Assembly (NCBI RefSeq): GCF_000723165.1 | Contig: NZ_HG322949.1 | Coordinates: 4,410,019 to 4,474,018 of the forward strand | DNA from: Janthinobacterium agaricidamnosum NBRC 102515 = DSM 9628 | Lineage (GTDB): Bacteria > Pseudomonadota > Gammaproteobacteria > Burkholderiales > Burkholderiaceae_D | DNA: 64,000 bases | Direction: 5' to 3' | Part shown: piece by piece, positions 25,907-62,126 of the stretch | Numbering within the stretch: the stretch's first letter is position 1 | Layout: each line of letters starts with the position of its first letter | Notes under the pieces: model-generated | Told to the model about the DNA's origin: nothing | Seen by the model: the letters and a program-made list of their open reading frames with translations, nothing else | Database searches by the model: none | Position numbers and translations under genes: made by a program

Positions 25907-26267
25907 GGGGACGACCTGGTTTCGACGTGGGTTGCAAAGCAGCGCAGGGCATACCGAGGGCTGGTTACCTCGTAAATACACCCAGAAAAAACTTAACTGC
26001 AAACGATAAATCGTACGCACTGGCAGCTTAATCGCTGCTAGCTCTAGAACACCTCGTCCCTGGGGTGGGCCGTCAAAAGCTCTGGAGTCATTTACAGGGA
26101 CTCGTCTGATGCTGGGTTACTTAGCATTCGACTAAATAATAGGTAACTCGCTTGTACACAGCGTGCACGTCCGCGTTGTACCGGTTAAATTAAATGGCAG
26201 TGCTAAGTATGTAGAACTGTCTGTAGAGTGCTTGCGGACGCGGGTTCGATTCCCGCCGTCTCCACCA
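25907..26267 (+). ncRNA. ssrA: Transfer-messenger RNA (tmRNA)
   Basis: This 361-nt RNA rescues stalled ribosomes by acting as alanyl-tRNA and as a short message. The 5' end GGGGACGACCTGGTTTCGAC and the 3' end GGTTCGATTCCCGCCGTCTC followed by CACCA form the tRNA-like part. The tag is read from 25999 to a TAA at 26029-26031 and gives ANDKSYALAA, with the hydrophobic ALAA end recognised by ClpXP. The 3' end is the attachment site of a decayed integrative element (26243-29310). A strong terminator follows. Confidence 0.97.
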
Positions 26268-56830: not shown

Positions 56831-57295
56831 TTACCGCAGAGCTTTCTTCCCCAGCAAGGCATCCAGCGACAAGCGTCCCGGACCGAAGGCAAACAAGGCC
56901 AGCAATAAAGCGCCCCAGTAAAAATGGTCGTTGATCGCCGCCGGACATTCGAATGAAAACAATTGTGGGTAAGAAATCACCGCCATCGCGTTGACGAAGA
57001 ACAAGGCCAGTGCTGCCGGACGCGACAGCAAGCCGGCGAACAGCAATATCGGCAGGCACAGTTCACCCGTTGCGCCCAGCACCGCGGCCAGATCCGGCGG
57101 CAGTAGCGGTACCTGGTATTCATCGCGGAACAGCGCCAGTGTCGCGCCCCAGTCGCTGACCTTGATCATGCCGGCTTTAAAGAACTGCCAGCCGACATAC
57201 CAGCGGATGAACAAGCTCATCAATGAGCCAGCCCAATCGCCGATGACGGCATCAAAACGGGTAGTGCCACGGTACAAGTCCAGTATGGTTTTCAT
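56831..57295 (-). CDS. DoxX family membrane protein, third gene of the bufferin operon
   Basis: This 154-residue membrane protein has four predicted helices (SLMSLFIRWYVGWQFFKAG, LAAVLGATGELCLPILLFAG, PAALALFFVNAMAVISY and FYWGALLLALFAFGPGRL). DoxX proteins commonly accompany DUF2282 and DUF692 genes, where they are called BufD. They may connect maturation or metal handling to the respiratory membrane, which is inference. It lies 75 bases after the fusion gene on the same strand and ends the operon. Confidence 0.85.
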   Translation of the reverse strand: MKTILDLYRGTTRFDAVIGDWAGSLMSLFIRWYVGWQFFKAGMIKVSDWGATLALFRDEYQVPLLPPDLAAVLGATGELCLPILLFAGLLSRPAALALFFVNAMAVISYPQLFSFECPAAINDHFYWGALLLALFAFGPGRLSLDALLGKKALR

Positions 57296-57370
57296 GATTT
57301 TCTCGATAGGGTGGTAAACAGCCGGCCCAGGAACCGGATGGGGATAGAGTTAAGACAATTGTTCGAGCAG

Positions 57371-59014
57371 CTACGTTGCGTGGAGCATTCCGCAAATCAA
57401 ACCATGTTCGACCCATGACTGCATATTCGCCGCGACGTCGAAGTTGTCATCGAGATCGAACGCGGCATCGAGCGCGGCGCCCATATTGCCGCCCTGCGCC
57501 AACACCGCCAGGGCCGCATGCGTCGCCCGGTCCAGCAGCAGTACTTGCGGCTTCCAGCACGGCCGGCCGACGATGGCGTAGCTGGCCGCATGCAACTCGG
57601 CCGGGAATGGCGCCGCCGCTGGCTGATGCGCTTGCCATAAAGGTGCGATGGCCCATGCCGATACCAGCAGCCAGGCCGCCGGATGCAAGACCAGCCGGAC
57701 ACTTTCCAGCTGATCGGGCGTCAGCGCGCCCAGTTCGGCAGCCGTGGTCGGCACGGCGTCGGGCGCATAATGGGCCCGGTGCAAAGCCCATTCCAGGCGC
57801 GCCATGTCCGCCAGGTAAGGCAGCTCGGCAACATGCGGAAAGTCCGCCAGGAATGCGGCAAACGATGCGCCGTAGCGGTTCAGGTCGGGATTATCGGATG
57901 GGTGCTCCATGCCGTAAGCCCGCGTCAAGCCGCCAAAAAACTCTGCGCCGACCAGCAAGCGCACTACCGGATAAGCGTTCGCCAGGGTTTTCTCCCACGT
58001 CACGGTCAAATTGCCGCGATACAAGGCCAGGCGGTGCGCCACATGCGGGTCGTCCTTGCAATGTTCCAGTATCAACGCCGTAGCGGCCGGCTCGAATAGC
58101 GCATCGGCAAAGTCTTGCTGCAGACTTGCCATGCCAGCGGCGACCAGCGCCGTGCCGCGGCCAGTGGCGGCATGCGTCGCGGCTGGCGCGGCGGCATAGG
58201 CAGCAGCAATCGCGTCCGCCTTGGCGGCCTCGCCCAGCAACACGTCGAGTGCAGGAATATCGCTATCCCATTCGATCAGCGTCGGCACCTTGCCAAAACG
58301 CTGCAAGGCAGCCTGGTACAAGGCCCATACCGGTTCAGCGACGGCCGCGCCATGATTGTCGATCAGCGCTTGCGGCGTCGCCAGGTGGCCGGCAAGGTGG
58401 ATCTCGCCGACGCTGCCGACAGCAATCGCAGCGATCGCTTGCAGCGCATCCTCTTGATGGTTGCACTGGTTCACGTACAGGTTATTGATGTCCAGCAGCA
58501 AGCCGCAACCCGTGCGCGCGGCCAGCGCCGCCATGAATTGCGCCTCGCTCATGCTATCGTCGCGGAAACGCACATAGGTGGACACATTTTCCAGCAAGAT
58601 CGACCGCTTCAATACCTCTTGCACCCGCTCGACCCGCTGGCACAGCAAATCCAGCATCGATACGTTCAAGACCAGCGGTAATAAATCGTTCAGTTGCCGG
58701 TCGAATACCGCGCCCCAGCATAAATGCTCGGATACCAGCGCCGGTTCGACTTGCTCGACCAGCGCACGCACCCGCTGCAGATGTTGTTCAGAAAATCCGC
58801 GCGCCGACCCCAGGCCCAGGCCGACGCCATGCAGGCTGAAGCGGTAATCGCGCCGCAATTGTTGCAGCACATGCCAGTCCCAGCCAGCCTGGTCCAGATA
58901 ATTCTCGGTATGGACTTCCAGCCAGGCCGCTGGCGGCCGCTGTTCGACGAACTGGCGGTAATGCGGGGCCCGCAATCCCACTCCCGTGCCGCTGAAAACC
59001 AGAGTGTGCGACAT
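57371..59014 (-). CDS. DUF692::DUF2063 fusion, bufferin maturation enzyme and partner
   Basis: This 547-residue protein joins two proteins that are usually separate. Residues 1 to about 270 are a DUF692 multinuclear non-heme iron oxidase (MNIO, BufB/MbnB type) with putative metal ligands in [56 protein letters not shown] and GEIHLAGH. After an Ala-rich linker (about 265-290), residues 290-547 are a DUF2063 partner protein (BufC type) with [20 protein letters not shown] and [20 protein letters not shown] enzymes oxidise cysteines of a precursor peptide, and the partner binds it. The precursor is encoded 33 bases upstream. The frame is continuous. Confidence 0.88.
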
Positions 59015-59047
59015 GATAGCCGGGCCCCGTTATGCTAAAAAATGAAA

Positions 59048-59302
59048 TTACTTCGCTGGCGTCAGGGAACCGCCGACTTTTTCGCAGGTGCCTTTGGCGA
59101 CATATTTCCACTCTTTCGGCGACATGTCGACTTTCGACTGGCCGGCGCAGGAATGGCTGCCGTTGGCGGTGGCGCAATCGTTTTGGCCGGCCTTGGCCAC
59201 ACCGAAGCATTTGTCTTTGGCGCCAGTATCGGCGGCGCTGGCGGTACCTGCTGCGCACAGACCAGCAAGGGCGGCGGCGATCAAGGCTTGACGTTTGTTC
59301 AT
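59048..59302 (-). CDS. DUF2282 bufferin-type metallophore precursor (BufA1-like)
   Basis: This 84-residue protein has a signal peptide ([20 protein letters not shown], to about ASA at 21-23) and a mature part with four Cys: Cys32 ([14 protein letters not shown]), Cys43, Cys52 (GSHSCAGQS) and Cys73 (GTCEKVGG). This spacing is the hallmark of DUF2282. Members were recently shown to be periplasmic copper-binding peptides (bufferins) whose cysteines are modified by the MNIO enzyme. AGGAGAAATACC precedes the ATG at 59302. It is the first gene of a three-gene operon. Confidence 0.9.
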
Positions 59303-59558
59303 GGTATTTCTCCTGGATAAAATGGGGTAAAAAACGTACAACGGATTGAGCAGCTTAAAAACTTGAAACCGATGCTACATCGCTGCAACTGAACGGTAGT
59401 CGCGGCGGCATGCCGATTCCTTACACACTTTTTTTAAAAATTTCGACATGATCAATTTCCCTTAGGAAATGACAACTTGGATTCTACTGAATTCAACGGG
59501 AACATCAGTGGAATTTATTGAGGCACAGCGGCAAAGCAACAGCGTATGCCGGAATAAA
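59303..59558. other. Bufferin operon leader and promoter region
   Basis: There is no gene. It holds a possible ECF-type promoter (59397-59425) and an 88-base leader before the bufferin precursor. An AT-rich block follows, up to the terminator at 59559. Confidence 0.5.
59397..59425 (-). promoter_or_regulatory. Possible ECF sigma factor promoter of the bufferin operon
   Basis: On the minus strand TGTAAG (59425-59420), a 17-base spacer and CGACTA (59402-59397) resemble ECF promoters of the GTAAC/CGTCTA kind. The leader would be about 88 bases. No sigma or anti-sigma gene is in the operon. Confidence 0.4.
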
Positions 59559-60642: not shown

Positions 60643-60675
60643 CATCGGCATCGGCATCGGCATCGGCATCGGCAT
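60643..60675. repeat. Hexanucleotide tandem repeat CATCGG x5
   Basis: Five perfect copies of CATCGG and a partial sixth lie between the mobB start and the phosphoesterase stop. This simple-sequence repeat is non-coding on both strands for the genes called and could vary in copy number. Confidence 0.8.
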
Positions 60676-60689
60676 TTTGCCAGCCGCCG

Positions 60690-62126
60690 TCATCCCCGTG
60701 GCGCAGGAGCATCCAGTTTGCCGCGCTTCCTGCGTCGCTTTCCAATCGCCAGCGGGATGGTGGCAGGCTTGTCGCCCGGCGGCTTTGTATGCCTGGCGAC
60801 TTTGGCGATTTGTTTTTCGGCGGCGATCGCCCCCGCTTCCTCGGCCGACAACATCATCGTCATCGATTGCGCCGTCACGGCATGCATGCCGCTCTCCCAC
60901 GCCGCCGAGGCAAGCAGCGCGGCTTCCGGCAGCGCCGGCAAGCTGCGCGGCTGCGCTTCCGACAGCAGCGGCCCCAGGTGCGCGGCCGCGCCCACTCTCG
61001 GCCCCATGTCCGGGATAGTCCCCTCCATCGAGCGGCAAAAGCGCAGCAGGATGGTTTTGATGATGGCACTGTGGTCCAGCACGCCATGGTGGACACTGCT
61101 TGCGGCCACCCATGGCGAAATGGCGAAGGCCGGCACGCGCACGCCGTATTGGCGGAAAGCCGGGTCGGCGTCGATCGCCGCGCCCGGCGCGACATGGTCG
61201 TAAAAGCCGCCATGTTCGTCGTAGCACAGGATCAGCAGGGTGTCGTTCCAGCCGGGTCCGTTCGACAGCGCTTGATACACTTGTGCGGCCAATGCCTGGC
61301 CGGCACGCACGTCGGCCGGCGGATGGTCGTCGTTTTCAAAGAAATGCGGATCGATCCATGATACGGCCGGCAAAGTGCCGGCCAGCGCGTCGCCGATAAA
61401 GCCGTAGCGGCGCTGGCTGGAACCGAAGGGCTCGTAATGTTCCGAAGTCCGGTAATGATCGTCGGTCAGCGCCAGGCTCCATGGCTTCCAGAAGGAATAA
61501 AATTTCCAGCTGACGCAGGCGCTGTCCAGGTGCCGCACAAAGGACTTGTTGGCGTACAAGGGAACCCGCTTGCTATCCTTGCTGCCGGCCGCCTTGCCGC
61601 TGATGGCGTACAGCCGGTTCGGCCAGGTTGCGCCGGGTACCGAACTGTACCAGCGGTCGCACACGCAAAATTGTTGCGCAAGAAAATCATAAACCGGCAA
61701 GTCGGCGGCATTGTAATACCCCATCACCAGCGGGAAATCGGCATCGCCCGGGTGCGTCAGCAGGTAGTCGTCGATAAAACCGCCATTACCATTAGACAAT
61801 TGCCGCGCCACCGATGCGCCGCCATGGCCCGGATCCTGGTCCGGCCTGAACGCCGTCCGCGCCAGGTGATGTACCGGATAGTCGCGGCCCGCGTGGCTAT
61901 TCATAAACCCCGCCTGCAAGCCATCGATATCGCCGCGCCCGCCCTCCAGGCTCAGATAACCGAGCATATGGTCGAAGGAACGGTTTTCCATCATCAGCAC
62001 GACGATATGCTTGATCTTGTCGAGATTGGCGATAGCGGCAGCCAGCCCGATGGCGGCGCGCTGCGACAACTCGCCCGCGCCATCGGACGACTCTGAGGAT
62101 ACGGCGGTTCCGATATTCATACGCAC
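60690..62126 (-). CDS. PF04185 phosphoesterase (phospholipase C-like)
   Basis: This 478-residue protein belongs to the phospholipase C/acid phosphatase (PF04185) family of alkaline-phosphatase-fold hydrolases. IKHIVVLMMENRSFDHMLGY holds the metal and nucleophile region. VPGATWPNRLYAISG and ILCYDEHGGFYDHVAPG supply further metal ligands. No signal peptide is visible, unlike most secreted phospholipases C, so it may be cytoplasmic or exported by another route. The C-terminal 60 residues are Ala- and Lys/Arg-rich. The substrate cannot be inferred. Confidence 0.82.
   Translation of the reverse strand: MRMNIGTAVSSESSDGAGELSQRAAIGLAAAIANLDKIKHIVVLMMENRSFDHMLGYLSLEGGRGDIDGLQAGFMNSHAGRDYPVHHLARTAFRPDQDPGHGGASVARQLSNGNGGFIDDYLLTHPGDADFPLVMGYYNAADLPVYDFLAQQFCVCDRWYSSVPGATWPNRLYAISGKAAGSKDSKRVPLYANKSFVRHLDSACVSWKFYSFWKPWSLALTDDHYRTSEHYEPFGSSQRRYGFIGDALAGTLPAVSWIDPHFFENDDHPPADVRAGQALAAQVYQALSNGPGWNDTLLILCYDEHGGFYDHVAPGAAIDADPAFRQYGVRVPAFAISPWVAASSVHHGVLDHSAIIKTILLRFCRSMEGTIPDMGPRVGAAAHLGPLLSEAQPRSLPALPEAALLASAAWESGMHAVTAQSMTMMLSAEEAGAIAAEKQIAKVARHTKPPGDKPATIPLAIGKRRRKRGKLDAPAPRG

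Follow-up and report, generated by a model that had tools for sequence, protein, structure and literature searches.

Bufferins are Sec-exported peptides in which the two central cysteines are modified, to thiooxazoles in Buf1 of Caulobacter, and the outer two form a disulphide; Caulobacter Buf1 binds copper through its thiooxazoles and aids growth in excess copper (PMC12452194). The class name captophorins has been proposed for such systems (PMC13097082). Most MNIO enzymes studied work only with a partner that is thought to hold the substrate, and HvfB needs its partner HvfC for the active mixed-valent Fe(II)/Fe(III) state (PMC13419390). Because this pair associates weakly, a direct HvfB-HvfC fusion was built by hand, and markedly higher activity is reported for the artificial protein than for HvfB and HvfC coexpressed separately (PMC13419390, bioRxiv July 2026). 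Here we describe a 64,000-nucleotide stretch of the Janthinobacterium agaricidamnosum NBRC 102515 genome (NZ_HG322949.1, positions 4,410,019 to 4,474,018; the window), which carries a Buf1-type, gigPABT-like operon with BufB and BufC as one polypeptide, an arrangement that we consider likely to work as proposed below.

The window shares with Buf1 clusters (bufABC and doxX) and with gigPABT of C. metallidurans a DUF2282 precursor with a Sec signal and four mature cysteines, an MNIO enzyme, a DUF2063-RRE partner, a DoxX protein and the order of these genes (PMC12452194, PMC10304878). It differs in that bufB and bufC are one gene, that the precursor has an extra signal-peptide cysteine, and that no sigma or anti-sigma gene adjoins, whereas gigPABT is divergent from the ECF (extracytoplasmic function) sigma gene rpoQ (PMC10304878). 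A separate partner of about 250-260 residues is absent; a single 547-residue frame without internal stop stands in its place, which makes the operon a Buf1 variant, still within the class. An earlier note on this DNA had proposed a bufferin-type operon of three minus-strand genes, and all three were located where it put them, with profile matches to DUF2282 (PF10048, 88.1 bits against a cut-off of 22.4), MNIO_BufB, DUF2063 and DoxX. The DoxX protein scores 57.1 bits against PF07681, above the Pfam cut-off, and 48.7 against NCBIfam HvfX, under the cut-off of 80; DoxX is common in Buf1 clusters and not obligatory.

Both Pfam matches of the fused protein, PF05114 and PF09836, lie above their cut-offs, and its MNIO half passes the cut-off of NCBIfam NF050167 (MNIO_BufB; 353.7 bits against 310), falling below those of the equivalogs for HvfB (210.8 against 360), MbnB (TIGR04159, 39.5 against 325), ChrH and ApyH. 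The metal-site motifs are conserved, as the earlier note had held, and its reading of an MNIO domain joined to a DUF2063 partner was right as far as it went: the partner half also carries a C-terminal RRE-type domain, and is thus a PME-type-1 protein, that is, BufC. Since a search of PDB sequences with the partner half gave nothing credible (best E 0.036), it was compared by fold, and in AlphaFold models each half matches one chain of the TglHI heterodimer, with 8hi7_B, 3bww and MbnB as the matches of the MNIO half. TglHI (8hi7) and MbnBC are two proteins each, act on other substrates and share a low 8-23% identity with the window's halves in the fold alignments. The full 547-residue chain was modelled by AlphaFold2 with a mean pLDDT of 90.1 and a pTM of 0.89.

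The engineered HvfB-HvfC protein is likewise one chain, with the MNIO domain N-terminal and a PME-type-1 partner C-terminal, but it is man-made, has no linker and acts on oxazolin, whereas the window's fusion is natural, has a linker of about 30 residues and belongs with a DUF2282 peptide (PMC13419390). MovX also combines a recognition domain (winged-helix/RRE) and an MNIO domain in a single chain (PMC12452194, PMC13419390), but the text available mentions no DUF2063 domain in MovX, and its substrate is MovA, in which a C-terminal Asn is modified (Table 1, PMC12452194). Literature searches, with supplements and most subscription papers outside their reach, found no printed description of a natural MNIO-DUF2063 fusion, and none is given in the accessible parts of PMC12452194, PMC13419390, PMC13097082, PMC12538549, PMC12257519, PMC12141560, PMC12710340, PMC13174530 or PMC8719888. 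The bufferin class is known and the architecture already present in sequence databases, while its natural, repeated occurrence was not found described in the searches made.

The continuous frame is not a sequencing accident, because each of the 120 listed homologues (the best 120 of 4,921 with E<=1e-10) is a single protein of 534-586 residues with both Pfam domains. The window's own entry left aside, their identity is 64-71%; they are named from genera such as Janthinobacterium, Duganella, Rugamonas, Massilia and Pseudoduganella, and several are already called 'MNIO family bufferin maturase' in the databases. In a sample of 145 Oxalobacteraceae genomes, MNIO occurs in 85, with 129 matches in all; 115 loci were read, 44 of them fused and 71 split, the other 14 matches being divergent or fragmentary, two of these (G138, G111) with frames above 600 residues. 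A fused MNIO is found in 44 of the 85 MNIO-bearing genomes, and 14 of these 44 have a split one too. The same coexistence holds in J. agaricidamnosum itself, whose single 5.95-Mb contig carries three MNIO genes, only the window's being fused: at one further locus (L163, C1:269083) two six-Cys precursors stand in tandem beside split BufB and BufC, and at the other (L164, C1:5746525) split BufB/BufC occur together with two six-Cys precursors, a DUF2282 precursor, an alpha/beta-hydrolase-like gene between, and a DoxX-like protein, near a gene resembling a sensor kinase (hydrolase, DoxX-like protein and kinase being named by eye).

Outside the family, reading of the loci confirmed fusions in at least seven genomes of an order-level sample (G239, G220, G253, G327, G291, G200, G397; 300 genomes, 144 with a match, family members included) and in at least five of a class-level sample (G783, G576, G688, G650, G525; 369 genomes, 220 with a match). 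A phylum-level sample had a match in 121 of 349 genomes, and the seven new loci read there (G811, G1025, G877, G1098, G572, G1056, G950) included no fusion; only suspicious rows among the matches listed were read in these three samples, so that the fused counts are lower bounds. A scan of named genomes kept 80 loci, 31 of them fused, including Ideonella and two Omnitrophota metagenome-assembled genomes, in a set biased by a query built from fused proteins. Fusions occur both with Buf1 (DUF2282) and with six-Cys Buf2-type precursors; as our home-made Buf2 profile also matched Buf1 precursors, only loci without a DUF2282 match were called Buf2 (nine fused). The earlier note had raised how often the two domains are fused; the counts inside and outside the family reject the view of the fusion as a one-off of this genome, as it is common in Oxalobacteraceae and recurs in other lineages. 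A long open frame was rejected as a criterion for fusion, since G753, G754, G811, G1025 and G362 are long-framed and yet, on reading, were split or showed no partner, and loci with one stop between the halves were counted as split (G623, G507, G450, G743, G877, G1098, G572, G1056). In a set of split loci (L192-L199 except L197), BufB and BufC touch or lie 0-27 bases apart, several of them in one frame with a single stop, as natural near-fusions.

Of 277 MNIO domains, 209 were kept for a tree (69 fused, 137 split, three unscored) after removal of near-identical rows sharing one state and of most rows in which no partner was found; this tree requires at least 13 changes between the fused and split states, and a careful tree of 90 hand-picked rows (36 fused) likewise gives 13. 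The approximately unbiased (AU) test rejects a single clade for the main Buf1-type fusions (p 7e-5; 24 fused rows held together with two split clade members) and for eight Buf2-type fusions (p 4e-4). Fused state and precursor type defined these groups, but only once a first tree had been seen, which biases the p values downwards; the AU sets did not include the f193 group and L169, both of which are in the tree. One ancient fusion, spread by descent or by transfer of the fused gene, is thereby rejected for these two sets. For the big Oxalobacteraceae clade, neither leaving out its two split members (p 0.21) nor adding L133/L149 (p 0.36) was rejected by the AU test, so that the number of events is approximate. 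Well separated fused lineages in the careful tree are the window's large Oxalobacteraceae clade, L087, L076, the f193 gammaproteobacterial group, L169, the Omnitrophota pair and an Ideonella/gammaproteobacterial group; L186, L060, L075 and L133/L149 are less certain, L060 and L075 lying on long branches. The tree does not tell gains from losses, the split state being the wider one. Joining is common in Oxalobacteraceae and appears to have happened several separate times elsewhere. The MNIO domain precedes the partner, as in the gene order, in all 97 frames with both domains; the locus-reading script required this order, and a separate check for the reverse order found it in none of the 97. Linkers range from 14 to 98 residues, with a median of 29, in 77 complete distinct fused proteins.

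The precursor was described in the earlier note as a four-Cys DUF2282 peptide with a signal peptide, which holds for the mature part; the peptide has five cysteines in all, the fifth, C16, lying within the signal peptide. Precursors of the window's Oxalobacteraceae clade start approximately with MNKRxALxAAALAxxCA, and a cysteine in the signal-peptide core is present in 58 of 62 distinct fused-clade precursors (L133/L149 included) and in both split clade members (L099, L104), whereas none of the 8 other fused precursors and 1 of the 95 other split ones have it, 11 loci without a clear start being left out of the count. By these counts it marks the clade, and was rejected as a correlate of fusion. 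In a lipobox, a small residue stands directly before the cysteine; the residue preceding C16 and its counterparts is, by eye, mostly bulky, and a lipoprotein reading is unlikely. According to data given as preliminary in PMC12452194, the signal peptide is part of what BufB-BufC recognises, and for this reason the clade's cysteine may matter.

Upstream of the precursor gene, TGTAAGG-N16-CGACTA looks like an ECF sigma promoter and is the sole match of this motif in the window. Its first base is the upper coordinate, 59425, that the earlier note had given for the operon; the precursor gene itself starts at the ATG at 59302, which the AGGAG at 59314-59310 supports, 59341 being merely a TTG further upstream in that frame. 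Among 173 deduplicated bufA upstream stretches, many of them from related genomes and hence not independent, 39 contain TGTAAGG-N14-17-CGAC (16 of 69 fused, 23 of 104 split), with spacers of 16 (n=22), 15 (n=16) and 17 (n=1), as against none on the reverse complements of these stretches and a mean of 0.05 in 20 first-order Markov shuffles. A second motif, TGTAAC[CG]-N14-17-CGA[AC], was found in 11 of the 104 split and none of the 69 fused stretches; it is weaker, with nine matches on the reverse complements too. Two NrsF matches, each adjoining an ECF gene, lie elsewhere in the genome (L285, L286), away from the three MNIO loci, and a related site, TGTAACC-N16-CGAA, precedes nrsF at L285. Matches to a sigma-70 promoter (1, against 1.7 in shuffles) and to terminators (6, against 4.7) were close to expectation and were not used.

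As we propose it, an ECF sigma factor encoded elsewhere would switch the operon on under metal stress, as the promoter-like motif suggests. The RRE/DUF2063 half would capture the precursor in the cytoplasm by its Sec signal peptide and hand C43 and C52 over to the MNIO half, where a mixed-valent diiron site would, by analogy with homologues, convert them to 5-thiooxazoles. The fusion would keep enzyme and partner permanently at 1:1, as the earlier note had also supposed, and drop an assembly step, so that modification could precede export. The peptide would then be exported by Sec, lose its signal peptide, form the C32-C73 disulphide and bind excess copper in the periplasm, with DoxX assisting. 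That the operon makes a copper-binding peptide is very probable. The fusion may supply by birth the pairing that was engineered for HvfBC, and would be most helpful where a substrate with a Sec signal needs modifying before export.

Several observations weigh against this proposal. The promoter motif is not enriched genome-wide (three matches, against ten for a reversed-pattern control), and no sigma or anti-sigma (ECF/NrsF) gene, of the kind that some Buf1 clusters contain, was found among the five flanking genes scanned. The partner half scores 49.5 bits against NCBIfam HvfC, far under the cut-off of 142, as does the split partner at L163 in the same genome, with 47. Split pairs are the majority even in the family, and fusion is not required, because split pairs are equally successful and this genome keeps two of them. 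An ordinary bufferin operon whose fusion is neutral, overlapping or nearly touching bufB and bufC having been joined by stop loss or a small indel with no cost and no gain, is a serious possibility, if on balance somewhat improbable. The commonest gaps between the two genes, -4 (n=23) and -17 (n=18) among 147 distinct split loci with a partner (negative gaps being partly an effect of longest-ORF calling), would make such joining easy, as would the loci with both genes in one frame and a single stop between them; the variable linker length points the same way, and L099 and L104, split loci nested in the big fused clade, may have come apart again, which the AU test does not demand. A neutral fusion sits less well with a fused state that persists at about 65-70% identity across the clade of Janthinobacterium, Duganella, Massilia, Rugamonas and Pseudoduganella, with its repeated origin in the same order each time, and with the activity gained by the engineered HvfBC fusion (PMC13419390).

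A product directed less at copper than at some other metal or stress (gold, mercury, oxidative stress) is unlikely. The gig operon was named for its induction by gold (PMC10304878), and MerC-bufferin fusions are reported and roles beyond copper discussed (PMC12452194), but copper induces gig as well (PMC10304878) and it is copper that Caulobacter Buf1 is described as binding and in whose excess it aids growth. It is very improbable that an internal start or proteolysis frees the BufC half, leaving a heterodimer as the working enzyme: the Ala-rich, low-confidence linker at about residues 281-290 offers a possible protease site, whereas the full-length model is confident overall. Going beyond the proposed working of the operon, we raise as a tentative and rather doubtful idea that evolution has repeatedly arrived at single-chain MNIO-partner maturases because the peptide has to be modified before Sec can export it; the signal peptide of the Oxalobacteraceae clade would have changed along with the enzyme, gaining a conserved cysteine read by the RRE domain or the iron site, and the fused enzyme would act as a gate passing only handled precursors to Sec.

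Features of the operon are collected in Table 1; 33 bases separate the precursor gene from the fusion gene. The five flanking genes scanned encode an aspartase/fumarase-type lyase, DUF883, YjfB-type, MobB and phosphoesterase proteins, and none of them looks like part of the operon. The phosphoesterase gene (60690-62126, minus) is closely followed at its 3' end by a perfect hexanucleotide repeat, CATCGG, in 5.5 copies (window 60643-60675), and a tmRNA gene with the tag ANDKSYALAA is found at 25907-26267 (plus strand).

Table 1. Coordinates, in the window, of the operon with the fused BufB-BufC maturase.
Feature	Position	Strand	Remarks
ECF-sigma-type promoter-like site TGTAAGG-N16-CGACTA	59425..59397 (to 59399 without TA)	minus	about 97 bases upstream of precursor ATG
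AGGAG, ribosome-binding-site-like, of precursor gene	59314..59310	minus	by sequence reading
Precursor gene (bufA1-type, DUF2282)	59302 (ATG)..59048 (stop)	minus	84 aa; mature Cys C32, C43, C52, C73; PF10048
Sec signal peptide of precursor	59302..59234	minus	about residues 1-23, judged by eye; contains clade-specific C16
Signal-peptide Cys C16	59255-59257	minus	precursor residue 16
Fused BufB-BufC maturase gene	59014..57371	minus	547 aa; Pfam and NCBIfam, homologues, AlphaFold2
MNIO (DUF692) domain	58987..58205	minus	residues 10-270; PF05114 331 bits; MNIO_BufB; fold matches
Ala-rich linker	58204..58124	minus	about residues 271-297; low model confidence near 281-290
DUF2063 domain	58123..57848	minus	residues 298-389; PF09836 74.4 bits
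RRE-type domain	57694..57386	minus	about residues 441-543
DoxX-family membrane protein gene (GigT/HvfX position)	57295..56831	minus	154 aa; PF07681

Natural single-chain versions of the maturase are many, span several bacterial lineages and two or more classes of precursor, and would be good subjects for structures and kinetics. Sister pairs of split and fused systems would allow a direct test of the value of coupling enzyme and partner, and of the modification of Sec-targeted peptides before export.
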